This document shows, in pieces, positions 2 through 40,260 of a DNA stretch of 46,704 nt; within the stretch, counting starts at the first letter, position 1; the number at the start of each line of letters is the position of its first letter. Position numbers and translations under genes: made by a program. Source of the stretch: Acidimicrobiia bacterium. Lineage in GTDB: Bacteria; Actinomycetota; Acidimicrobiia; UBA2766. Below the pieces are notes generated by a model. It worked only from the letters and a program-made list of their open reading frames with translations, was not told where the DNA came from and searched no databases. The DNA lies in assembly GCA_020850945.1 (NCBI GenBank), contig JADZDR010000002.1:1-46704 (forward strand). Direction: 5' to 3'.

Positions 2-3000
2 GCCACGACCGACGAGTCCGACCTGATCGTCACCGGGCCCGACGAGGAGGGCACGGCCCGTCTCCGTGTGACCGTCACGGCCACCAAGGACGCCAAGACC
101 CTCTCCGGCACGACCGACATCACGCTCACTGTCACAGCCGCCCCCGGCGGACCGGACTGCGACCGGGACTCCTCGGAGTCGAGCGACTCCGAGGAAGACA
201 CCGAGGAAGACCCGGACGCGGGTGACCCCGTCACCGACTGCCCCTTCGCCTACGCCGGACCCGACCTCGTCGTCGCTCCCGGCGCCACAACCGTGATCTT
301 CGGCTCCGGCGGCCTCGAGAAGGTAGACGACGGGAACGAGAGCACCGATGACGAGAGCGAGACGGACGGACCCGACCTCACCTACGCGTGGACGCAACGC
401 GAGGGCGAGGACGTTCTCGACGCCGGGCAGTCCACCGACGAGGCGGACCTCGCCTTCACAGCTCCCGAAGGAGAAACCTACCTGATCTTCGACCTGACCG
501 TCGCCGACGAATGGTCGAACTCCGCGACGGACAGCGTCATCGTGTACGTCAGCGAGTCCTCTGAGACGTGGGAGCCCGACAACGAGTCCGATGACACCGA
601 CACAACCGACGACGACGACACGGACACAACCGACGACAGTGATACAGACACGACCGACGACGACGACGACACGGACACAACCGACGACAGTGATACAGAC
701 ACGACCGACGACGACGACACGGACACAACCGACGACAGTGATACAGACACGACCGACGACAGTGATACAGATTGGTCGACGGGGGAGGTCGAGGATCTGT
801 TCTGTGCACTGTGGGAGTCGAGTAGCGGGTCGGTGACGATACCCTTCGGCGCCGACGTCGAGGTGACGTTGGACAAGGACGGGGACGACTGCCTGGCAAG
901 CGCGGCGGAGTTGGCCTCTGACGCCGATATCGACATCGCCGCGGGAGTGACCCTCACGTCGCTGTACCTGCGAGCCGACGGATCCGGCGTGGAGGTCTCG
1001 GGGGCGGCAACGGTTGCGTGCGGTTCGTCCGATTCGCTTGAGGTCGCGCTCCGGGGCGAGCTCGACAAGGAGGACGATGCCTACAGCGGTGAGCTCACGG
1101 CAGCGCTCGACGAGGCCGGCGACTGTGCGCTCCTCGATGGCGTGACGATCGAGTCGCTGTCGGGCACGGTCGCCTTCGACGGCAGGGACGTCGACCTGTC
1201 GATCGCGGTCGCCCTCTCGGACTGGACACCCGCCAGCGGGATCGCGGTCACGGATCTCTCGGCCCTCTTCGTGCACGGCGGCGACGGTTCCGAAGTCGAG
1301 CTCGCCGGCAGCGTGGCGGTCACCTCCACCCTCGGCGGCGAATGGTCCGCTGAGCTCGCCGGCAGTTTCGCCTTGGACTCCGGCACGTGGCAGCTCTCCG
1401 CCGACCTCGCTGACACCTGGCAGCCCACCTCGGGGTTCACCCTCGAGGACCTGCGCGTCGAGGTGAGCAACGACGGCGACACGACCACCGGCAGACTCGT
1501 CGGCGACGTCGAGGTCCTCGGAGTCACGGCCAGCGCCACGGTGCAGCTCTCCCCCGACGCCACGGTCGTCGATGTCAAGATCGGCGACTGGATGCCGATG
1601 GGTGGTGTCGCCGCGAGCGACGTCCACGTCCTATACGCCAGTGCCGACACCACCTACGACCCCGAAGGCGACGCGTCCGCAGTCGAGATTGGCGCCGGTG
1701 AGCTGCGGGTGACCGGCGAGTTCCCCGTGCCGTCAGAGATCCGTGACCTCCTCGGCCTCTCGAGCGACACCAAGGGCACCCTGACCGGAACCATCGAGGC
1801 GGGCAGCAGCGACTACGAGCTCACCGTCGCCCTCACGAGCGAGTCCGGCTGGACCCTCATCGACACCGACGGAGGGATCGAGCTCACCCTGACCAGCGTC
1901 GGTTTCCGCATCGCCAACACCGACGGGCTCGCGCTTACGGCCGACGCCTCCCTCACCATCCCGGACCAGCCCGACCCACTCGCACTGAGCGCCGACCTCG
2001 CAGTCGGCCTCGACGGTATCAGCGGCTCGCTCAGCCTCACCAGCGCCTGGACCGACGCCTTCGGCGTCGACGGGCTCACGATCCAAGAAGCGGCGATCGC
2101 CGTCGGTGTGAGCTGGAGCGGCACCCCCTCCGTGGGGGTCGCCGCCACCGCCACCCTGCCCGAGTCCATCCGCACGCCGCTCGGCATGAACGCCGAGGAC
2201 ACGGTCACTGTCGCCGTCAACCTGTCGGCGACGAACCCGTGCTTCGCCCTTGCGATCGGCGCAGACGACGGCGTCGACTCGCTCGCCCTCACCGTCAGCG
2301 ACACCGAGGTCGTCACCGCCGACGTGGTCGACCTCGTGATCGCCCCCGCCGGCTGCAGCATCGGCACCTACGACTACACAGCCGGTATCTCGCTCCTCTT
2401 CCAGGGCGCCCTCCTCGGCGTGACCGTCGACGTCGACGCCACCCTCGATCTCAGCGCTGGCAGTCCATCGTTGGATGCGCACGTCGACGTCGGCACGCTG
2501 AACATCCCCGACACCGGCATCTCGATCCTCGAGTCCAGCGTCGATCTGACGATCTCGCCCACCGACGGGTTCGCCTTCGCCTTCAGCGGTGGCGTGGAGC
2601 TCGGCGACGACTCCACGACCGTCACCGTCGCCGGATCTGTCGAAGCGAACGGGGCCGGTGTCGCCCTCACCCTCGACGGAGACCTGAGCGGTCTCAACTT
2701 CGGCGGCTACGGTCTCCAAGAAGCCCATCTGTATCTCGACGTCGCGATCGGCGCCACCTTCTCCCTGGAAGCCGCGGCCGACGTGACCGTCGCCCTGGGC
2801 GACAACGAGATCAGCGGCTCGTTCGCCTTCACCTTCTCCGGCGGCACCGTCCGCGAGCTCGCCGGCAGCCTGTCCATCGGCACTTGGGACGGCACGTCCT
2901 GTAGCGATGCCATAACGCTCGGTGCCGTCGAGCTGTGCGCCACCGCGACGTTCGACTACCAACGGGGACGTGATGCGTCGTTCACCTTCGCCGGCCTCCT

Positions 3001-4243
3001 CGGCGTCGGTGGACTCAGCCTCGAGGTCGCCGGCGAGCTCGGCGCCACCTACATCGCGCTCAGCACTGCGCTCGAACTCGACAGCGTCGGCAGCTTCGAG
3101 GTCTCCGGCCAACTCGTCACCGCCGACGGCACCGACCGCGAAATCGACGCCGTCACCTGCGCAGCCGACACGTCCACGATGCCGGCAACGGTCTCCATGA
3201 CAGAAACACCCACCGCCGCCGGCGCAGGTGACTTCCACCTCGCCACGACTGCTGACCTCGAGCTCGGCGGCTTCGCCATCGAAACAGACCTCGCCGTGAC
3301 CAGCGTCGGCGACACCTTCGCCATCGTCGCCGCCGGCGACATCAGCCTCGGTGACGCCAGCAGCGCAAGCCTCAGCGGCTGCATCGACAAGAGGACCGAC
3401 GGCTGGACACTCGCCGTCGCCGGCGACGCCGAGCTCGACATCGCCGGCATCGAAGCCACCGGTGCTGTCGCACTCGTGCTCCAACCCGGCCACGGCGTCT
3501 CCGTCGACGGCAGCTTCGACATCGAGCTAGGCACCGTCGTCGAACTCGGCGCCAGCCTCGACGGCAGCTTCAGGGCCGACAGCGACGGCATCAGCTACAC
3601 GCTCGCCGGCGAAGGCTCCCTCAGCGTGAGCGACTGGGACGTCGCCGACGCCTCGTTCTGGTTCTCGAACGAACCGACCAAACGCGGCCTGACCGCCTCC
3701 ATCGATCTCGACCTCGGCGTCACCACCCTCAACGCGGACATCACCTTCGGCGCCGGAGGCACGTTCCTCTTCAGCACCACAGCCGAAATCAACCTCGTCG
3801 TCGCCAGCGCCTCCCTCGGCGTCGAGCTCACCAACTGCCATGACGGCGACTGCACGAGCGGGCGCACGAAAAGCACAAGCCTCTCGATCAACGGTGAGCT
3901 CTACGCACTGGGCTTCCACTTCTCCGTGGCCGCAACCATCGCCGACGACGGCTCGTTCAGCGTCGACATCAAATCCGATGCGGACTTCGTCAGTGGATCC
4001 CTGAACCTCGGGCTCATCGCGATAAGGGCATCGGTCCGTTTCCACGCCGAGCTACACCTCGAGTCCGACGGGAGCGGCATCGAGTGGGACGCCGGGCTCG
4101 GTGGCAGCGTAAGCGCCGGATACAAGTGGGCTGGCGAAGACTGGGTCGACGTCGAAGCAGGTATCGAAGGCACGCTGAGCCCGACCGACCTCGACGTCTA
4201 CATCGAGGTCGACGGGGCCACCTACACCCTCGACCTCATCTAG
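2..4243 (+). CDS. Large Asp/Thr-rich repeat protein, 5' end outside the window
   Basis: The frame is open from base 2, so the gene starts upstream; a GTG at 68 is only an internal codon. About 1,413 codons are present. In order: the end of an Ig-like strand-rich domain; an acidic stretch (about 155-240); a PKD/K319L-like beta domain (about 236-550, with AYAGPDLVV and LTYAWTQ); an Asp/Thr linker (588-772); then over 1,100 residues of alternating polar/hydrophobic strands in recurring blocks that contain motifs such as LSDWTPASGI, LADTWQPTSG and IGDWMPMGG. No LPXTG motif or C-terminal membrane segment is visible. The composition suggests a calcium-binding or surface-exposed secreted protein, but this is inference. 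The extended amphipathic strands could also form a beta-groove or solenoid. No enzymatic motif was seen. The gene converges on the mce operon. The reading frame is certain; the function is unknown. Confidence 0.85.
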   Translation, partial: ATTDESDLIVTGPDEEGTARLRVTVTATKDAKTLSGTTDITLTVTAAPGGPDCDRDSSESSDSEEDTEEDPDAGDPVTDCPFAYAGPDLVVAPGATTVIFGSGGLEKVDDGNESTDDESETDGPDLTYAWTQREGEDVLDAGQSTDEADLAFTAPEGETYLIFDLTVADEWSNSATDSVIVYVSESSETWEPDNESDDTDTTDDDDTDTTDDSDTDTTDDDDDTDTTDDSDTDTTDDDDTDTTDDSDTDTTDDSDTDWSTGEVEDLFCALWESSSGSVTIPFGADVEVTLDKDGDDCLASAAELASDADIDIAAGVTLTSLYLRADGSGVEVSGAATVACGSSDSLEVALRGELDKEDDAYSGELTAALDEAGDCALLDGVTIESLSGTVAFDGRDVDLSIAVALSDWTPASGIAVTDLSALFVHGGDGSEVELAGSVAVTSTLGGEWSAELAGSFALDSGTWQLSADLADTWQPTSGFTLEDLRVEVSNDGDTTTGRLVGDVEVLGVTASATVQLSPDATVVDVKIGDWMPMGGVAASDVHVLYASADTTYDPEGDASAVEIGAGELRVTGEFPVPSEIRDLLGLSSDTKGTLTGTIEAGSSDYELTVALTSESGWTLIDTDGGIELTLTSVGFRIANTDGLALTADASLTIPDQPDPLALSADLAVGLDGISGSLSLTSAWTDAFGVDGLTIQEAAIAVGVSWSGTPSVGVAATATLPESIRTPLGMNAEDTVTVAVNLSATNPCFALAIGADDGVDSLALTVSDTEVVTADVVDLVIAPAGCSIGTYDYTAGISLLFQGALLGVTVDVDATLDLSAGSPSLDAHVDVGTLNIPDTGISILESSVDLTISPTDGFAFAFSGGVELGDDSTTVTVAGSVEANGAGVALTLDGDLSGLNFGGYGLQEAHLYLDVAIGATFSLEAAADVTVALGDNEISGSFAFTFSGGTVRELAGSLSIGTWDGTSCSDAITLGAVELCATATFDYQRGRDASFTFAGLLGVGGLSLEVAGELGATYIALSTALELDSVGSFEVSGQLVTADGTDREIDAVTCAADTSTMPATVSMTETPTAAGAGDFHLATTADLELGGFAIETDLAVTSVGDTFAIVAAGDISLGDASSASLSGCIDKRTDGWTLAVAGDAELDIAGIEATGAVALVLQPGHGVSVDGSFDIELGTVVELGASLDGSFRADSDGISYTLAGEGSLSVSDWDVADASFWFSNEPTKRGLTASIDLDLGVTTLNADITFGAGGTFLFSTTAEINLVVASASLGVELTNCHDGDCTSGRTKSTSLSINGELYALGFHFSVAATIADDGSFSVDIKSDADFVSGSLNLGLIAIRASVRFHAELHLESDGSGIEWDAGLGGSVSAGYKWAGEDWVDVEAGIEGTLSPTDLDVYIEVDGATYTLDLI
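588..772 (+). repeat. In-frame tandem repeat encoding an Asp/Thr/Ser linker
   Basis: A unit of about 48 bp (ACGGACACAACCGACGACAG followed by TGATACAGACACGACC and a variable run of GAC) occurs about three times, at about 620, 671 and 719, spaced by 51 and 48 bp. It encodes runs such as DDTDTTDDSDTDTT. Copy-number differences by whole codons would only lengthen or shorten a flexible acidic linker between the PKD-like domain and the strand-rich region. Confidence 0.9.
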
Positions 4244-6691: not shown

Positions 6692-7707
6692 TCCGCCTCG
6701 AGCTCCTCTTCGGTGGGCAGCGGGATCACGGGGAGCGGCGGCGCCGGGTTCGGGCCGGGCTCACGCAGGTCGCGATCGAGGAGGGTGCCCAACCCCCAGA
6801 AGTTCGCGGGGACGGTGTGCCCCGCCCGGAACAGCCGGTAGGCCTCCATCGAGTTCGTGTACGCGATCTCGGCCACCCGCAGGACCTCTTTGATGTCGGC
6901 CTCGTGCGAAGTCATCACGTCCCGCAGGATCCGCATCGACGCCTCCATCCGCACCCAGTCGGTACGGGCACGGTCGAGGGTCTCCTCGATGCGGGCCTCG
7001 ATCACACGCTTGGTGTCGATGAGGCTGCCGATCTCCCCCATGGCGTCGACGAGGGCGTTCGTGAGGGTCTCGACGTCGCCGATCGTGGCGAGCAGCTCCG
7101 GCTGGCCGGCCACGAGCTGATCGGTCATCGCCCGGATCTGGGCGAGCTGGCTGCGGGCCTCGGCGCCGGCGACGGGCGCGATCTCGCTCGCGGTCTCGAG
7201 GCCGCCCATGACCGTCTCCTCGCCCAGGTTGTCGTAGAGCCTGGCCGAGCCCTCCCCCCCCGAGGACAGACCCGTCACGTCGGCCCCGACGCTGGTCTCC
7301 ATGACCCGCCCTCCCTCGAGCGGCGCCGACGCGGTGCCCGGGTCGAGGTTGACCATCTTCTCGCCGAGGAGGCTCTTGAGGGCGAGCTCGGCGCTCGCAT
7401 CCTCCTTCAGCTCGACGTCGCTGCCGATCTTGGCCGTCACGACGACCTGCGACTCGCCGTCGATCTCCTCGACGTGGATGCCTGTCACCTTGCCGACCTC
7501 GAGCCCGTTGACACGGACCTCGGACGAGCGCGGCGCGACGTTGAGCCCGTCCGCGAACACGAACTCGACGGTGTCCTGGCCGAACGTGAGGAGACCCGAG
7601 CCCGAGAAGCTCCACCAGAGGAACCCGACGAACACGAGGAGGCCGAGCGCGCCGACCATGAGGGCGACCCGGCGGCGGGTGAACGGTGCAAGGAGTGTGG
7701 CATTCAT
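6688..7707 (-). CDS. mce: MCE-family (MlaD-like) lipid-binding protein, first in operon
   Basis: 339 residues from the ATG at 7707, chosen because it overlaps the stop of the upstream permease by 4 bp (ATGA) and puts the membrane helix (about 14-32, LMVGALGLLVFVGFLWWSF) at the N-terminus. The open frame extends further upstream, but that part only reads the permease gene out of frame. The MCE domain (about 42-125) includes VRVNGLEVGKVTGIHVE and LALKSLLGEKMVNLDPG. A helical segment follows, and the protein ends in a Pro/Glu-rich tail. Same presumed role as the other two MCE proteins: the extracytoplasmic part of a lipid uptake complex. Confidence 0.94.
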   Translation of the reverse strand: MNATLLAPFTRRRVALMVGALGLLVFVGFLWWSFSGSGLLTFGQDTVEFVFADGLNVAPRSSEVRVNGLEVGKVTGIHVEEIDGESQVVVTAKIGSDVELKEDASAELALKSLLGEKMVNLDPGTASAPLEGGRVMETSVGADVTGLSSGGEGSARLYDNLGEETVMGGLETASEIAPVAGAEARSQLAQIRAMTDQLVAGQPELLATIGDVETLTNALVDAMGEIGSLIDTKRVIEARIEETLDRARTDWVRMEASMRILRDVMTSHEADIKEVLRVAEIAYTNSMEAYRLFRAGHTVPANFWGLGTLLDRDLREPGPNPAPPLPVIPLPTEEELEAE

Positions 7708-14127: not shown

Positions 14128-16725
14128 TCAGATGTCGTCGTCGAAGCTGTCCTCGACGGAGACGACTTCGCGATCGGGCTTGGGGGACCGATTCTCGTCC
14201 GGCCGGCCACCCCGGTCACGGTCACGGCCGCCACGGTCGCCGCGATCGTCGCCGCGCCCTGCCCGCTCCCGGCCCCGATCCCGGTCACGGTCGCGATCCC
14301 GGTCACGGTCGCGGTCACGGTCGCGGCCTCGATCGCGATCCCGGTCACCGCCGCGTTCGCCGCCGGAGCGACCCCCGCCCCGTTCGCCTCTCTCACGACC
14401 GCCACGGTCCCGGTCACGGCCACCCCGGTCCCGGTCACGGCCGCCCCGGTCCCGGTCACGGCCACCCCGGTCCCGATCGCGGCCGCCCCGATCACGGTCG
14501 CGACCGCCCCGGTCCCGGCTGCCCCGCTGTTCCTTCTCCCGCTCCATGCGGGCCTCGATCTCCTCGGGGGAGGCAACGGACCCTTCCGGGCCTGCGATCG
14601 GGAAGAGGTTCACGCGACCCTGCATGTCGATGTCGTCCACGCGCACGGTCATCTCGTCTCCGACTTCGAGCACGTCGCGCACGCTCTTGAGGCGGCCGCT
14701 CGTGCCGAGCTTGGAGATGTGGACGAGGCCGTCCCGGCCCGGGAGGATGTTGATGAAGGCACCGAAGTCGGTGATGTTGACGACCTTGCCCGCGTACTCC
14801 TTGCCGATCTCGGGTACGGGCGGGTTCGCGATCTGGCTGATCCAGTCGATCGCCGCCTGCATCGACTCGCTGTCGGTCGCACCTACGCGAATCGTGCCGT
14901 CCTCGTCGACGTCGATCTCGGCCCCGGTCTCGCGCTGGATCTCCTGGATCACCTTCCCCTTGGGGCCGATGACGTCGCCGATCTTGTCGACCGGTACCTC
15001 GATCGCCTCGATGCGCGGTGCTGTGGCTGCCACCTCGGGACGCGGCTCGGGGATCGCGTCGCGCATCACGTCGAGGATCTGGAGCCGTGCCGCCTTGGCC
15101 TGGTCGAGAGCAGCCGCGAGGACCGCCGACGGGAGGCCCTGGATCTTCGTGTCGAGCTGGAGTGCCGTCACGAACTCCCGCGTCCCCGCCACCTTGAAGT
15201 CCATGTCGCCGAAGGCGTCCTCGGCTCCGAGGATGTCGGTGAGCGTGACGTACTTCTCGCCTGCGTGCACGAGGCCCATCGCGATCCCGGCCACCGGTGA
15301 CTTGATCGGAACGCCTGCGTCCATGAGGGCGAGGGTCGAGGCGCACACCGAGCCCATCGAGGTCGAGCCGTTGGACGAGAGGACCTCGGAGACGAGCCGC
15401 AGCGCATAGGGGAACTCGTTCTCGGTCGGTACCACGGGCAGGACGGCCCGTTCGGCGAGCGCACCGTGGCCGACCTCGCGGCGCTTCGGACCCCGCATGA
15501 AGCCCGTCTCGCCCGTCGAGAACGGCGGCATGTTGTAGTTGTGCATGTACCGCTTCGAGTCCTCGGGGTGGATCGTGTCGATCGGCTGCGCCATGCGCAA
15601 CATGCCGAGCGTGCAGATGTTCAGGACCTGCGTCTCGCCCCGCTGGAAGAGTCCGGAACCGTGTGCACGGGGGATGACGCGAACCTCGGAGCTCAACGGC
15701 CGGATGTCCGTCGTGCCCCGCCCGTCCATGCGCAGGCCGTCCTCGGCGATGCGTTCCCGCACGTAGCGCTTCTCGAGGGACCGCAGCGCCGCCTTGATCT
15801 GCTTCTCCTGGTCCGGGAAGTCGGCGGCGAGCGCCGTGCAGACCTCGGCTGCGAGTGCGTCGTTCGCGGCGCTCCGCTCGCGCTTGTCGGCGATCTGGAT
15901 GATCTCACGCAGCCGGCCGCCGGCGACTCCCTCGGCCCTGTCGACGATGTCGCCGGTGTAGTCCCGGAACAGGTCGTACTCGAGAGGCACCGTCTCCACC
16001 ATGTCGCGCAGGCGGAGTTGCAGGTCGATCAGCTCCCCGATCGGCCCCTTGGCGATCTCGAGCGCCTCGACGAGGGACTCCTCGTCCGGGCGGCGATGCC
16101 CTTCCTCGATCAGGTCCCAGGCGTGCTCGGTCGCGCCCGCTTCGACCATCATGATGTCGATCTCGCCGGCGTCGTTGCGTCGGCCCGCCACGACGAGGTC
16201 GAAGACCGCCTCGTCCAACTGCTGGTACGTCGGGTTCGCGATCCACTCACCTTCGACGAGGGCGAGGCGGACACCGCCGATCGGGCCGTCGAAGGGCATG
16301 CCCGAGATGGTGAGGGCGGCCGACGCCGCGTTCAGGGACGCGATGTCGTGCGGGTTCTCGTGGTCGACCGAGAGCACGGTCGCGATGATGTGCACCTCGT
16401 TGCGGAAGCCGTCCGGGAACGCGGGACGCAACGGTCGGTCGATGAGGCGGCAGAGCAGGATCGCCTGCTCGCTCGCCCGGCCCTCCCGCCTGAAGAACGA
16501 GCCGGGGATCCTCCCCACGGCATACATCTTCTCCTCGACGTCGACTGTGAGCGGGAAGAAATCCTGGCCTTCACGCGCGCTGCGTGAGGCGGTGGCGGTG
16601 GCGAGGACCTGTGTGCCCCCGACCGTGATCACGACGGCGCCGTTGGCCTGCCCGGCCAGGCGTCCCGTCTCGAGAGTCCACTCCCGTCCGCCGATCTGGG
16701 CGGACGTGTGTGTGGTTCCTTGCAT
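14128..16725 (-). CDS. pnp: Polynucleotide phosphorylase with long RD/RGG tail
   Basis: 865 residues, roughly 140 longer than usual. It is the phosphorolytic 3'-5' exoribonuclease of mRNA decay. Domains: first RNase PH repeat (about 12-145, with GQDFFPLTVD and GRIPGSFFRREGR), linker domain, second RNase PH repeat (about 330-540, FQRGETQVLNICTLG and SNGSTSMGSVCASTLALMDAG), KH domain (about 575-640, IGPKGKVIQEIQRETGA) and S1 domain (about 645-715, GKVVNITDFGAFI). Residues 728-865 are a low-complexity tail of RGGRDRD-type repeats ending in an acidic SFDDDI. The ATG is preceded by GGAGGAG. It follows rpsO, as in most bacteria. Confidence 0.98.
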   Translation of the reverse strand: MQGTTHTSAQIGGREWTLETGRLAGQANGAVVITVGGTQVLATATASRSAREGQDFFPLTVDVEEKMYAVGRIPGSFFRREGRASEQAILLCRLIDRPLRPAFPDGFRNEVHIIATVLSVDHENPHDIASLNAASAALTISGMPFDGPIGGVRLALVEGEWIANPTYQQLDEAVFDLVVAGRRNDAGEIDIMMVEAGATEHAWDLIEEGHRRPDEESLVEALEIAKGPIGELIDLQLRLRDMVETVPLEYDLFRDYTGDIVDRAEGVAGGRLREIIQIADKRERSAANDALAAEVCTALAADFPDQEKQIKAALRSLEKRYVRERIAEDGLRMDGRGTTDIRPLSSEVRVIPRAHGSGLFQRGETQVLNICTLGMLRMAQPIDTIHPEDSKRYMHNYNMPPFSTGETGFMRGPKRREVGHGALAERAVLPVVPTENEFPYALRLVSEVLSSNGSTSMGSVCASTLALMDAGVPIKSPVAGIAMGLVHAGEKYVTLTDILGAEDAFGDMDFKVAGTREFVTALQLDTKIQGLPSAVLAAALDQAKAARLQILDVMRDAIPEPRPEVAATAPRIEAIEVPVDKIGDVIGPKGKVIQEIQRETGAEIDVDEDGTIRVGATDSESMQAAIDWISQIANPPVPEIGKEYAGKVVNITDFGAFINILPGRDGLVHISKLGTSGRLKSVRDVLEVGDEMTVRVDDIDMQGRVNLFPIAGPEGSVASPEEIEARMEREKEQRGSRDRGGRDRDRGGRDRDRGGRDRDRGGRDRDRGGRDRDRGGRERGERGGGRSGGERGGDRDRDRGRDRDRDRDRDRDRDRDRGRERAGRGDDRGDRGGRDRDRGGRPDENRSPKPDREVVSVEDSFDDDI
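14205..14530 (-). repeat. Low-complexity repeat DNA encoding the PNPase tail
   Basis: Short units of CGGTCACGGTCACGGCC/CGGTCCCGGTC type recur through this stretch of pnp, encoding alternating Arg-Asp and Arg-Gly-Gly. Two sub-blocks are visible: RGGRDRD units (about 14380-14520) and an uninterrupted RD run (about 14275-14335). Slippage here would lengthen or shorten a disordered RNA-binding tail without breaking the frame only in steps of three bases. Confidence 0.85.
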
Positions 16726-34637: not shown

Positions 34638-35186
34638 TCACGCCGTGAGGTGAATACGGGGCAGGGGAAGGAACCGGGTGGGGTCGAGGTAGCGGCCGTT
34701 CAGGGACACGCTCAGATGCAGGAGTGCCGCGTCACCGACGAGGTGTTCGACACCGCCGGCGATGACCTCGCCTGCGGCCACCGTGTCGCCCCCCCGCACA
34801 CCGACCCGGTCGAGGCGTCCGTACCTCACCACGAGGCCGCTGCGATGCCGCACCGTCACGTACCACGTGCCCGCGACACGCCCCGCGAACGTGACAACGC
34901 CACCGAGGCCGGCCCGGACCGGTCGGCCGGAGCCCGCGAGGAGGATGCCGACGTGACCCGGTCCGAACGGGGAGGCAGGCGGATCCCAGCCCCGCACCAC
35001 GCGCCCCGGGACCGGACGCACGTCGAATCGGTCCGGTTGGGGTTCGGCGCACGCGGGCCGCCCTCCGGTGAGGATCGCGACGACGGCGGCGATCACGACA
35101 CACAGGGTGACGGGATGCCGGGTGGCGTTCAGACGTCGTGCATGCGTGAGCGCAGCATGAGGACGGCCTTCGTGTGCATCTGGCAC
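34638..35186 (-). CDS. Secreted M23-fold (LytM-like) protein, probably inactive
   Basis: About 182 residues from a GTG at 35186 that overlaps the end of whiG; the start is uncertain, with a GTG at 35096 the alternative, and neither has a ribosome binding site. From 35186 the N-terminus is a signal peptide: basic residues, hydrophobic [16 protein letters not shown] (26-41), cleavage near ACAEP. The rest follows the M23 barrel ([39 protein letters not shown], cited in part). The metal-binding positions are altered: the H-x3-D motif reads HVGIL, the usual YxHL is YGRL, and HxH is LHL. It may therefore bind or regulate peptidoglycan rather than cut it. M23 genes beside rpsB and whiG recur in actinobacteria. 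Confidence 0.75.
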
Positions 35187-35899
35187 ACGCGGGATTCCGT
35201 GACCCCGAGGACCTGGCCGATCTCGGCCAGGGTGAGCCCCTCGTAGTAGTAGAGGGTGATCACGATCTTCTCGCGTTCGGGCAGGCGGTTGATCGCCTCG
35301 GCGAGCAGATGCCGTAACTCCTCGACCTCGAAGGCAGTCGTGGGATCCTGGCCCTGTGTGTCGGCCAGCGTGTCGCCGAGGGTGAGATTCTCGCCCCGCT
35401 CCGACCCCATGCCGATCAGCTCGTCGAGGGCGACGAGGCCGACGAAGGAGATCTGGTTGAAGATCTGGTGGAAGTCCTCGAGTGAGATGCCGAGCTCCTC
35501 GGCCACCTCGGGGTCGGTCGGGGTCCGACCCAACTTGTTCTCCAGCGTGCTGTATGCACGTTCGACCATGCGTGCCTTTGCCCGCACGCTGCGGGGCACC
35601 CAGTCGTACGAGCGGAGCTCGTCGATGATCGCGCCCCGGATCCGGCTGATCGCGTAGGTCTCGAACTTGATCCCCCGCTCCATGTCGAACTTCTCGATCG
35701 CGTCGATCAGTCCGAACATCCCGTAACTGACGAGGTCGGCCTGTTCCACGTTCGAGGGCAGGCCCACGGAGACCCGACCCGCCACGTACTTCACGAGGGG
35801 CGCGTAGTGGACGATCAGTTTGTCGCGAATCTCCTTGCCTCCGGAATCCTTGTACTCGGACCAGAGATCCTGGATATCGCTTGCGCTGTCGACGCCCAT
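35129..35899 (-). CDS. whiG: WhiG/FliA-family RNA polymerase sigma factor
   Basis: 256 residues from the ATG at 35899; the upstream frame lacks similarity. Sigma-70 region 2 covers about 25-95 ([53 protein letters not shown]), region 3 about 100-170, and region 4 about 195-250 ([23 protein letters not shown], then a helix-turn-helix [16 protein letters not shown]). In Streptomyces WhiG controls early sporulation; in motile bacteria the same family (FliA) controls flagella. No flagellar or spore gene is in the window, so the regulon is open. A TATACT box lies at 35969-35964. Confidence 0.95.
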
Positions 35900-36001: not shown

Positions 36002-37123
36002 TCACTGTGCCCTCACGACGGACGTCGGCGTGGGAGCCTCCACCAGACCGAGTTGCTCGAGCCGGCCGAGGGCGGCGAGAACGGCGACGAGGGGTTGCGA
36101 GGTGAAGCGGGCCACACCGTCCACCGACTCCGGCGTGTAGGGCACGGCCTCGAGCACTGCAACCTCGACCTCGGTCAGGTCGGGGTGGGGCGAGCTCCCG
36201 TCTCCACGTCCTGCTCGCGGGCGGGCAGCAAGGTGTTCGAGGCCGAGAGCGACGAGGACGTCCTCGACGCCGCGGCACACGAGGGCGCCGTCGGCAAGCA
36301 GGGCATTCGTCCCCTCACTGTGCTCCGACCACGGGGGCCCGGGCACAGCCATGACCGGGCAACCGAGCCGCAAGGCATGCGCCGCCGTGGACAGAGAGCC
36401 ACCCCGGGCGGCGGCCTCGACGACCACGACAACCGAGGCAAGACCGGCGATGAGCCTGTTGCGGATCGGGAAACGCCAGCCCGGCGATCCGCACGAGGCA
36501 GGCACATGGCTCACGAGGCCCCCTCCTGTCGCGAGGATCGCCGCCGCGACGTCGCGGTTCGCGGCCGGACCCGGCCGGGCGACTCCACCGGCCAGCACGG
36601 CCACGGTCTGTCCCCCCGCCGACAGCGCCCCCTCGTGCGCCGCCCTGTCTATGCCGAATGCGAGACCGCTCACGACGCAGAGACCCGCTTGCGCGAGGTC
36701 CCGACCGAGGGCGCGGGCGAAGTGGCGCCCACCCGACGAGGCCTTGCGCATCCCGACGACGGACACACACGGCGACCGCGGAAGCTCCCCTCGCACGGAC
36801 AGGACACACGGCCACCCCGCCCCTGCCGTCAGCAGCGACGCGAGGGGTTCGGTCCCCGCGCGGACGAGGTAGCCGTCGCACGCAGCCAGATCCGCGCGCA
36901 TCGTGCCGGCCATGCCGGGCTCCTGTAGTCGCGTTGCCGCCTCCGTGGTCGTCGCCCGCCGCCCGGGGGGGATCATCCCGGCGAGATCGTCGCCTCCGGC
37001 GACGAGGTGGGCGAGGGCAGCTCCCGCCCGCGGCCACCGGCGGGCGAGCTCGGCGAGCGCGGCGAGATTCACGTGCGGAAGCCCTCCGATCCCCAACCAG
37101 AGGATGTCGTCCATGTCCGTCAC
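36002..37123 (-). CDS. dprA: DNA-processing protein DprA
   Basis: 373 residues from a GTG at 37123, which overlaps the comM stop as GTGA and has GGGGAGGG five bases upstream. The Rossmann core is clear: VSVVGMRKASSGGRHFARAL, VVSGLAFGIDRAAHEGAL, TVAVLAGG, FPIRNRLIAGLASVVVVVEAA, and GGSLSTAAHALRLG, followed by VMAVPGP. An N-terminal SAM-like region and a C-terminal winged helix (about 315-365) flank it. DprA loads RecA on incoming single-stranded DNA during natural transformation. It is intact, unlike the neighbouring comM. Confidence 0.96.
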   Translation of the reverse strand: MTDMDDILWLGIGGLPHVNLAALAELARRWPRAGAALAHLVAGGDDLAGMIPPGRRATTTEAATRLQEPGMAGTMRADLAACDGYLVRAGTEPLASLLTAGAGWPCVLSVRGELPRSPCVSVVGMRKASSGGRHFARALGRDLAQAGLCVVSGLAFGIDRAAHEGALSAGGQTVAVLAGGVARPGPAANRDVAAAILATGGGLVSHVPASCGSPGWRFPIRNRLIAGLASVVVVVEAAARGGSLSTAAHALRLGCPVMAVPGPPWSEHSEGTNALLADGALVCRGVEDVLVALGLEHLAARPRAGRGDGSSPHPDLTEVEVAVLEAVPYTPESVDGVARFTSQPLVAVLAALGRLEQLGLVEAPTPTSVVRAQ

Positions 37124-38625
37124 GACCACCCTCCCCTGCCGTCGTCGCCGGCCGGCATCCGCAGGCGCCACGCGAGATGTACGTGTTGCGCCTCGATCCG
37201 CTCCTCACCGTCGAGGTCCGCAATCGTCCTCGCGACCTTCTGGAGCGACGTGAGACCGCGCGAACTCACGGACTCGGCGTGGCTGCGTACGGCCATGGCG
37301 GCATCGGCCGTCAGCCCCACACACGCACGCAACTCGGCACCGTCGAGTCCGGCGTTGAGGTGCGTCGGGCCCTGCCTCTCCTCCTGCCGGCCACGCGCGC
37401 GCACAACCCGCTCTCGCATGCCGGCGGACTGGGCCGTGACCTCGTGGTCCAGGACCCGGTCGGGGTCTTCCACGTTGACCGGGACACAGATGTCGATGCG
37501 GTCCATGAGCGGCCCGCTCATCCTCCGCCGGTAGCGGGCGTGGGCGACGTGGTCGCACGTGCAGGGCCTGCGGGCCGACCCGAGGAAACCGCACGGGCAC
37601 GGGTTGGAGGCGGCAATGAGCATGAAGCGGGCGGGGAAGCGCACGCGGGCGGCACGCCGGCTGATCGTGACCTCACCATCCTGCAGTGGCTGGCGGAGTG
37701 CATCGAGGACGGAAGGTCGGAACTCGCCGAACTCGTCCATGAAGAGGACCCCGCAATGCGCGAGGCTCGCCTCGCCCGGCGTGATGTGGGCACTGCCGCC
37801 ACCCACGAGGGCGTGCACCGAGGCGGAGTGGTGCGGACTCCGGAACGGTCGGGCCCGCATGAGCCCCTTGCCCGTCCCGACGAGTGAGTGCACGAGCGAG
37901 ACCGCGATCGCCTCGTCGGAGCCGAGAGGAGGCAGGATCCCCGGCACGCGCCGGGCGAGCATCGTCTTGCCGATGCCGGGTTCTCACACGAGAAGGCAGT
38001 GGTGCGCGCCGGCGGCAGCGACCTCGAGGGCGAACTTCGCGGTCTCCTGGCCTGCGACCTCACCGAAATCGGCGACGATCGGTTCCGACCCGGGTGCTCC
38101 TGTGATGATGTCCGTGGGGGGAGGCAGCCCGGCGGCGAGGGAGGTCAGGTGTCGCAGTCCGATCACGTCGAGACCGCTGACGGCGCCTGCCTCGACCACG
38201 TTGGCGTGGGGTACGAGAATGCCCTTCACCCCCTCGCGATGGGCGCAGAGCGCGGCCGACAGGACACCGGGCACGGCTCGCACGTCTCCGTCGAGGCCGA
38301 GCTCACCCACCACGAGGTGGGAAGGTGCCCACTCACCTTCGATCTGGCCGTCTGCGAGGAGAATGCCCACGGCGATCGGCAGGTCGAACCACGATCCCTG
38401 CTTGCGGAGTCCGGCCGGGGCGAGATTGACCGTGATCTTCTTCAGGGGCCACGTATAGCCGGACGTGACGATCGCCGCCCGCACGCGTTCCCGTGCCTCG
38501 CGCACGGCCGTGTCGGGCAGGCCGACGAGGGTGAAGCCCGGGACACCGGAGCCGATCTGGATCTCGGCCCTGACCGGATGGCCGTCCACGCCGATCGTGG
38601 CCACCGAACGTACGACAGCGAGCAT
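37120..38625 (-). pseudogene. comM: comM (YifB-type Mg-chelatase-like ATPase) interrupted by an in-frame TGA
   Basis: One frame of 502 codons, from the ATG at 38625 (GGGGGAG upstream) to 37120, is broken only by a TGA at 37986-37984. Before it: the N-terminal domain (VRSVATIGVDGHPVRAEI, FTLVGLPDTAVREARERVRAA, NLAPAGLRKQG, FDLPIAVGIL) up to HHCLLV. After it: EPGIGKTMLARRVPGILPPL, then RPFRSPHHSAS, GVLFMDEFGEF (Walker B), ASNPCPCG and RIDICV to a normal C-terminus. The stop replaces the first glycine of the ATP-binding loop (GGA to TGA, one base). ComM is a branch-migration helicase that aids recombination of transformed DNA. Both halves are otherwise undamaged, so the change is recent or a base-call error. 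Restart at the ATG at 37962 would lose the loop. Confidence 0.93.
37129..37136 (-). promoter_or_regulatory. Ribosome binding site fixing the dprA start
   Basis: GGGGAGGG lies five bases before the GTG at 37123 and inside the last codons of comM. It makes the GTG a better start than the upstream codons and implies translational coupling to comM. Confidence 0.6.
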
Positions 38626-39891: not shown

Positions 39892-40260
39892 TCAGAAGGC
39901 ATCCCGCAGCACGCGCCCCACGACGTCACGGTCGCGCACGAGGACCTCGACCACGTCGAACCGGCACCCCTCGACCCCCGCACCGCGGCCGTGCCGGGAC
40001 AGCCACGCACCTGCCCCGCGGCGAAGTCGGCGCTGTTGCGTCTCCGTCACGGCCTCCGCCGGCAGGCCGAACGCGGTGCTCGAGCGGGTCTTGACCTCGC
40101 AGAAGGCGAGTGTCGGCGGGTCGTCGTCCGTGTCGTAGGCGATCACGTCGATCTCGACGCCGGCGACGACGGTGTTGCGCGACACGATCCGGTAGCCGAG
40201 GCTCTCGAGGAGCTCGCACGCGCAATCCTCGCCGATGCGCCCGATCTCGTGTGCGTCCAC
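39892..40260 (-). CDS. yraN: YraN/UPF0102 family protein
   Basis: 122 residues from a GTG at 40260 (GGAG upstream). The Holliday-junction-resolvase-like fold is indicated by GRIGEDCACELLESLGYRIVSRN (7-29), then EIDVIA with Asp38 and CEVKTR with Glu55 and Lys57, the PD-(D/E)xK pattern of nucleases. The function is unproven in most species; the usual link is to DNA repair or recombination. It precedes a crotonase, comM and dprA, and yraN-comM-dprA is a frequent order. Confidence 0.94.
   Translation of the reverse strand: MDAHEIGRIGEDCACELLESLGYRIVSRNTVVAGVEIDVIAYDTDDDPPTLAFCEVKTRSSTAFGLPAEAVTETQQRRLRRGAGAWLSRHGRGAGVEGCRFDVVEVLVRDRDVVGRVLRDAF

Follow-up and report, generated by a model that had tools for sequence, protein, structure and literature searches.

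The gene comM encodes a Mg-chelatase-like AAA+ helicase (ComM, also YifB) that assists the integration of imported DNA. In 22% of Acinetobacter baumannii strains it is a pseudogene, in most cases through AbaR or other elements; earlier reports describe loss of the gene in the Pasteurellaceae (PMC11472951), and such loss reduces transformation without abolishing it (PMC11472951; PMC12955456). Nonsense mutations have also been reported in competence genes of Aggregatibacter (PMC6963787). At the level of the protein, disruption of the Walker A motif, which occupies residues 218–225 of Legionella ComM (PMC11612176), is summarized as eliminating both DNA binding and helicase activity (Nero et al. 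2018, via PMC11612176).

The window, by which we mean the whole 46,704-nucleotide stretch of acidimicrobial DNA analysed here, encodes a ComM that shares its domains with the Legionella protein (PDB codes: 8rxd, 8rxk, 8rxs and 8rxt; PMC11612176) over its full length, but has a stop codon where the latter has Walker A residue 218 (Table 1). The locus resembles the A. baumannii and Pasteurellaceae pseudogenes (PMC11472951) in that a single-copy comM appears to be lost with comEC and dprA left intact; it differs in that those losses mostly involve AbaR islands, IS and other elements, whereas the window has one point nonsense codon, and in that it belongs to a high-GC lineage not known as transformable. 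We consider it probable, albeit far from certain, that comM is a recently inactivated gene, in which a nonsense mutation truncates ComM before the ATPase motor.

Table 1. Coordinates of comM, its neighbours and the other domain-interrupted genes of the same genome (window positions unless a locus is given)
Feature	Position	Strand	Remarks
comM	37120..38625	-	ChlI/Lon-like, AAA+ Mg_chelatase and Mg_chelatase_C domains; 501 codons, one interruption
In-frame TGA, codon 214	37984..37986	-	Replaces first Walker A glycine
N-terminal fragment, standard code	37984..38625	-	213 residues; Lon-like domain and linker, without ATPase motor
C-terminal open frame	37120..37962	-	280 residues; begins at first post-stop ATG, codon 222
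dprA	36002..37114	-	Intact; likely ATG 5 bases past comM terminal stop
Sigma-70 family factor (WhiG-like position)	35129..35899	-	Downstream neighbour
UPF0102/YraN family gene	39892..40260	-	Upstream neighbour
UTP-glucose-1-phosphate uridylyltransferase, UDPGP (PF01704)	L049:6453-7910 (G000:C5)	+	TAG at 7617, residue 389 of 486
HsdR N-terminal domain gene	L055:14033-15910	-	TGA at 14888, inside domain
Mutator-family transposase	L065:1094-1630	-	TAG at 1253, inside domain

On the plus strand, positions 37984–37986 read TCA, giving TGA on the minus strand; within a frame that runs from the ATG at 38625–38623 to the terminal TGA at 37122–37120, this is the sole other stop, flanked by the residues HHCLLV-stop-EPGIGKT. 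A preliminary description had placed the TGA exactly at the first Walker A glycine, in a frame otherwise open on both sides, and both statements hold: there is no further stop in the reading frame, and the position is confirmed by the sequence and by alignment to relatives and to Legionella ComM. With the stop written as X, Pfam recognizes the domain order of ComM, namely, ChlI (PF13541; residues 21–142), Mg_chelatase (PF01078; residues 186–385, E 1.4e-80, across the stop) and Mg_chelatase_C (PF13335; residues 399–489). The Walker B (DE) and zinc-binding (CPCG...C.C) signatures are present, as FMDEFGEF and CPCG...CTC, respectively. The Walker A signature G-x-P-G-x-G-K-[ST] is not encoded as a single chain: its first glycine is TGA, and E-P-G-I-G-K-T remains. 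The stop thus lies inside a conserved domain whose homologues in relatives are intact, as in a nonsense pseudogene, and a search of the genome for a second comM copy found none.

The preliminary description had also proposed a comparison of comM in related genomes. In an alignment built with tblastn, the column of codon 214 is glycine in all 29 aligned relatives of the same class, the closest of which, from the same family, is 53% identical and has the motif GEPGSGKT. Moreover, Legionella ComM (PDB code: 8rxd) aligns nearly end to end (E 1.9e-104), with its residue 218 at codon 214. A named genome collection yielded only distant comM relatives (36–41% identity), and the window's own genome may be absent from it. 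As previously stated, the glycine codon GGA lies one base from TGA, and it is the only glycine codon that does so; it makes up 12% of the glycine codons in the genome and 7 of the 56 that remain in comM. A stop could arise in comM by 95 other single-base changes, so the occurrence of this one in the Walker A motif needs no special cause: its location carries no special meaning, and the striking of so conserved a spot is a fair draw.

Across the class, comM was found at E 1e-30 or better in 284 of the 395 genomes searched, and among the approximately 150 strongest matches listed, seven have a stop inside the match, of which only that of the window is internal. The six other genomes, each flagged with one TGA, were rejected as cases of interruption: these are natural terminal stops at residues 484–491. 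No comM was found in the assemblies of a same-genus genome (G001) and a same-family genome (G003), because the relevant contigs (G001:C487, L111; G003:C26, L112) end inside dprA; the comM locus is simply unassembled in both. That both break inside dprA may be due to chance, or to strain variation at the locus. On single contigs of three further genomes (G208:C1, L180; G126:C1, L181; G350:C373, L182), comM is split into different frames, near codon 218 in G208 and at two places in G126; these splits are either frameshifts or assembly indel errors. The viral contigs searched contained no exact match to the comM stop site.

Apart from the stop, comM shows no decay. Excluding the stop, 49 of 51 invariant columns are kept (16 of 17 upstream and 33 of 34 downstream), and codon-position GC is similar on either side. 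With so little lost, and with the composition alike in both halves, the change is therefore either recent or an error. The surroundings of the gene are also as expected: a sigma factor, dprA, comM, an enoyl-CoA hydratase, UPF0102, signal peptidases and a tRNA m1G methyltransferase, with rpsB, tsf, pyrH and frr downstream. The neighbouring dprA, described earlier as intact, does have an open frame, as does comEC, which is also present in the genome. Elsewhere in the window, its strongest coding signal belongs to a 1391-residue ORF (68–4243, plus strand) with no Pfam match at E 0.001.

One reading of the conserved downstream half is that UGA is read through, by a near-cognate tRNA or a suppressor, to give low-level full-length ComM, and the preliminary description had raised this. 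However, such conservation is equally expected of a mutation too recent for decay, and the genome offers the idea no support. We found no suppressor or selenocysteine tRNA: the 44 tRNAs form the standard set, with no UCA anticodon among them, and the tRNA-Sec model RF01852 gave no match above its cut-off in the genome. Release factor 2 (prfB) is intact, with a score of 486 bits and an open frame, and UGA is the main stop of the window, terminating 36 of its 41 scored genes. We therefore regard read-through as very improbable; the more elaborate version, in which inefficient read-through at the Walker A glycine sets ComM dosage, with mostly the truncated Lon-domain product and little full-length helicase, is one to which we give hardly any credence.

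The same observations bear on the genetic code itself. In the code 25 organisms (SR1/Gracilibacteria), UGA is decoded as glycine, and the window's comM is like them in having TGA where glycine is expected; unlike them, its genome has RF2, has no tRNA-Gly(UCA), and uses TGA as its main stop codon. Additionally, of the four stops that interrupt a domain in this genome (see below), two are TAG. Both reassignment of UGA, to glycine or another residue, and selenocysteine were accordingly rejected. These results apply to the assembled genome, which is 98.5% complete, and in it UGA is a stop: given the intact RF2, the standard tRNA set and the prevalence of TGA as terminator, recoding is effectively excluded, and we attach next to no probability to it, in line with the earlier judgement that a code change was unlikely.

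The main rival is that the base arose as an error in the assembly or its consensus, or came from a minority strain in a mixed-strain consensus, with comM intact in most cells; we regard this as possible, though somewhat unlikely. The genome is a draft of 97 contigs, and probably a metagenome assembly, from an order with only four genomes. The gene differs by a single base, and its freedom from other decay is equally expected from an error. On the other hand, a random base change in comM would give a stop in ~2% of cases (95 of about 4500). A codon-usage scan of 844 kb, taken as sampled stretches, found 23 stops with in-frame coding sequence on both sides, and a further nine at relaxed thresholds. 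Pfam was applied to 20 of the 23 and eight of the nine, and most proved to be junctions of two genes sharing a frame; in four genes, comM and three others (two TAG and one TGA; Table 1), one domain extends across the stop. Of these three, two are mobile-element or defence genes, as is often so for real pseudogenes. The third is the conserved chromosomal gene for UDPGP, of which the same-genus genome G001 has an intact copy; a point stop in a second such gene of the same sample (L049:7617) could indicate base errors, rather than two independent losses. However, at the ~2% given above, two nonsense errors in 844 kb would correspond, by our estimate, to ~1 error per 10 kb, which is high for a consensus at good coverage. 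In a control of 418 kb from G002 and G005, no domain-spanning stop was seen among the candidates scanned, which were 10 of the 12; about two would be expected in 418 kb at the rate seen here, such that the difference is not significant and the control is too short to tell. A search for literature on premature stops in draft assemblies found nothing.

Taken as a recent nonsense mutation, the stop is presumably present in the living cell, beyond the assembly, and would have arisen through a single G to T change on the coding strand, converting GGA to TGA at codon 214. Translation would then end past the Lon-like domain, and the resulting 213-residue fragment would lack the AAA+ motor. A second fragment might be produced by re-initiation at codon 222, but this would be without the whole Walker A motif, and so it could not yield an ATPase. 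The branch-migration activity of ComM would be lost, and divergent or long heterologous DNA would be integrated less efficiently after uptake; DNA uptake itself and RecA/DprA-dependent recombination should otherwise still be possible. A polar effect on dprA, through lost translational coupling, is conceivable because of the proximity of its likely start codon to the end of comM. The preliminary description had proposed a fresh loss-of-function mutation, with loss of efficient transformation. The former is the best fit to the conserved columns on both sides of the stop; the latter is a plausible consequence of comM loss in a lineage whose transformability is itself putative.

Elsewhere in the class, comM is interrupted by quite different means, although these do not explain the TGA of the window. 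In G144 (G144:C25, L179, 1116-3497 and 8116-8790), the gene is broken at residue ~290 by an insert of ~6 kb, the whole of which lies on one contig, with the junction GEISMAQ / MAHGGVLFLDE. Fused in frame to the N-terminal half of ComM, the insert's first ORF contains Resolvase, Recombinase and zinc-ribbon domains. In G352 (G352:C61, L183, 1-203) and G374 (G374:C78, L192, 1573-1768), a Resolvase N-terminus begins just past the same comM codon, and the contig then ends. The break is thus at one codon common to all three genomes (GEISLAH / HGVLFLDE), just before Walker B, with a serine recombinase gene beginning directly at the junction, and we infer that it is likely to be a serine-integrase attachment site. 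Another G374 contig crosses the site unbroken alongside the Resolvase-bearing one, such that occupied and empty sites may coexist in that genome. Contigs of G179 and of G329 also end at this codon, in G179 with foreign sequence preceding the right half. Our literature search found no report of serine-recombinase elements entering comM at this codon.

The comM stop is ordinary in kind, whether it marks a broken gene or a base-call error, and neither it nor the recombinase insertions alter the understanding of the genetic code. The insertions, sharing one comM codon, would extend the role of comM as an integration target past the proteobacterial examples. The stop, if real, provides a point-mutation case from a poorly sampled high-GC lineage, and joins the pattern that few competence genes are lost as easily as comM.
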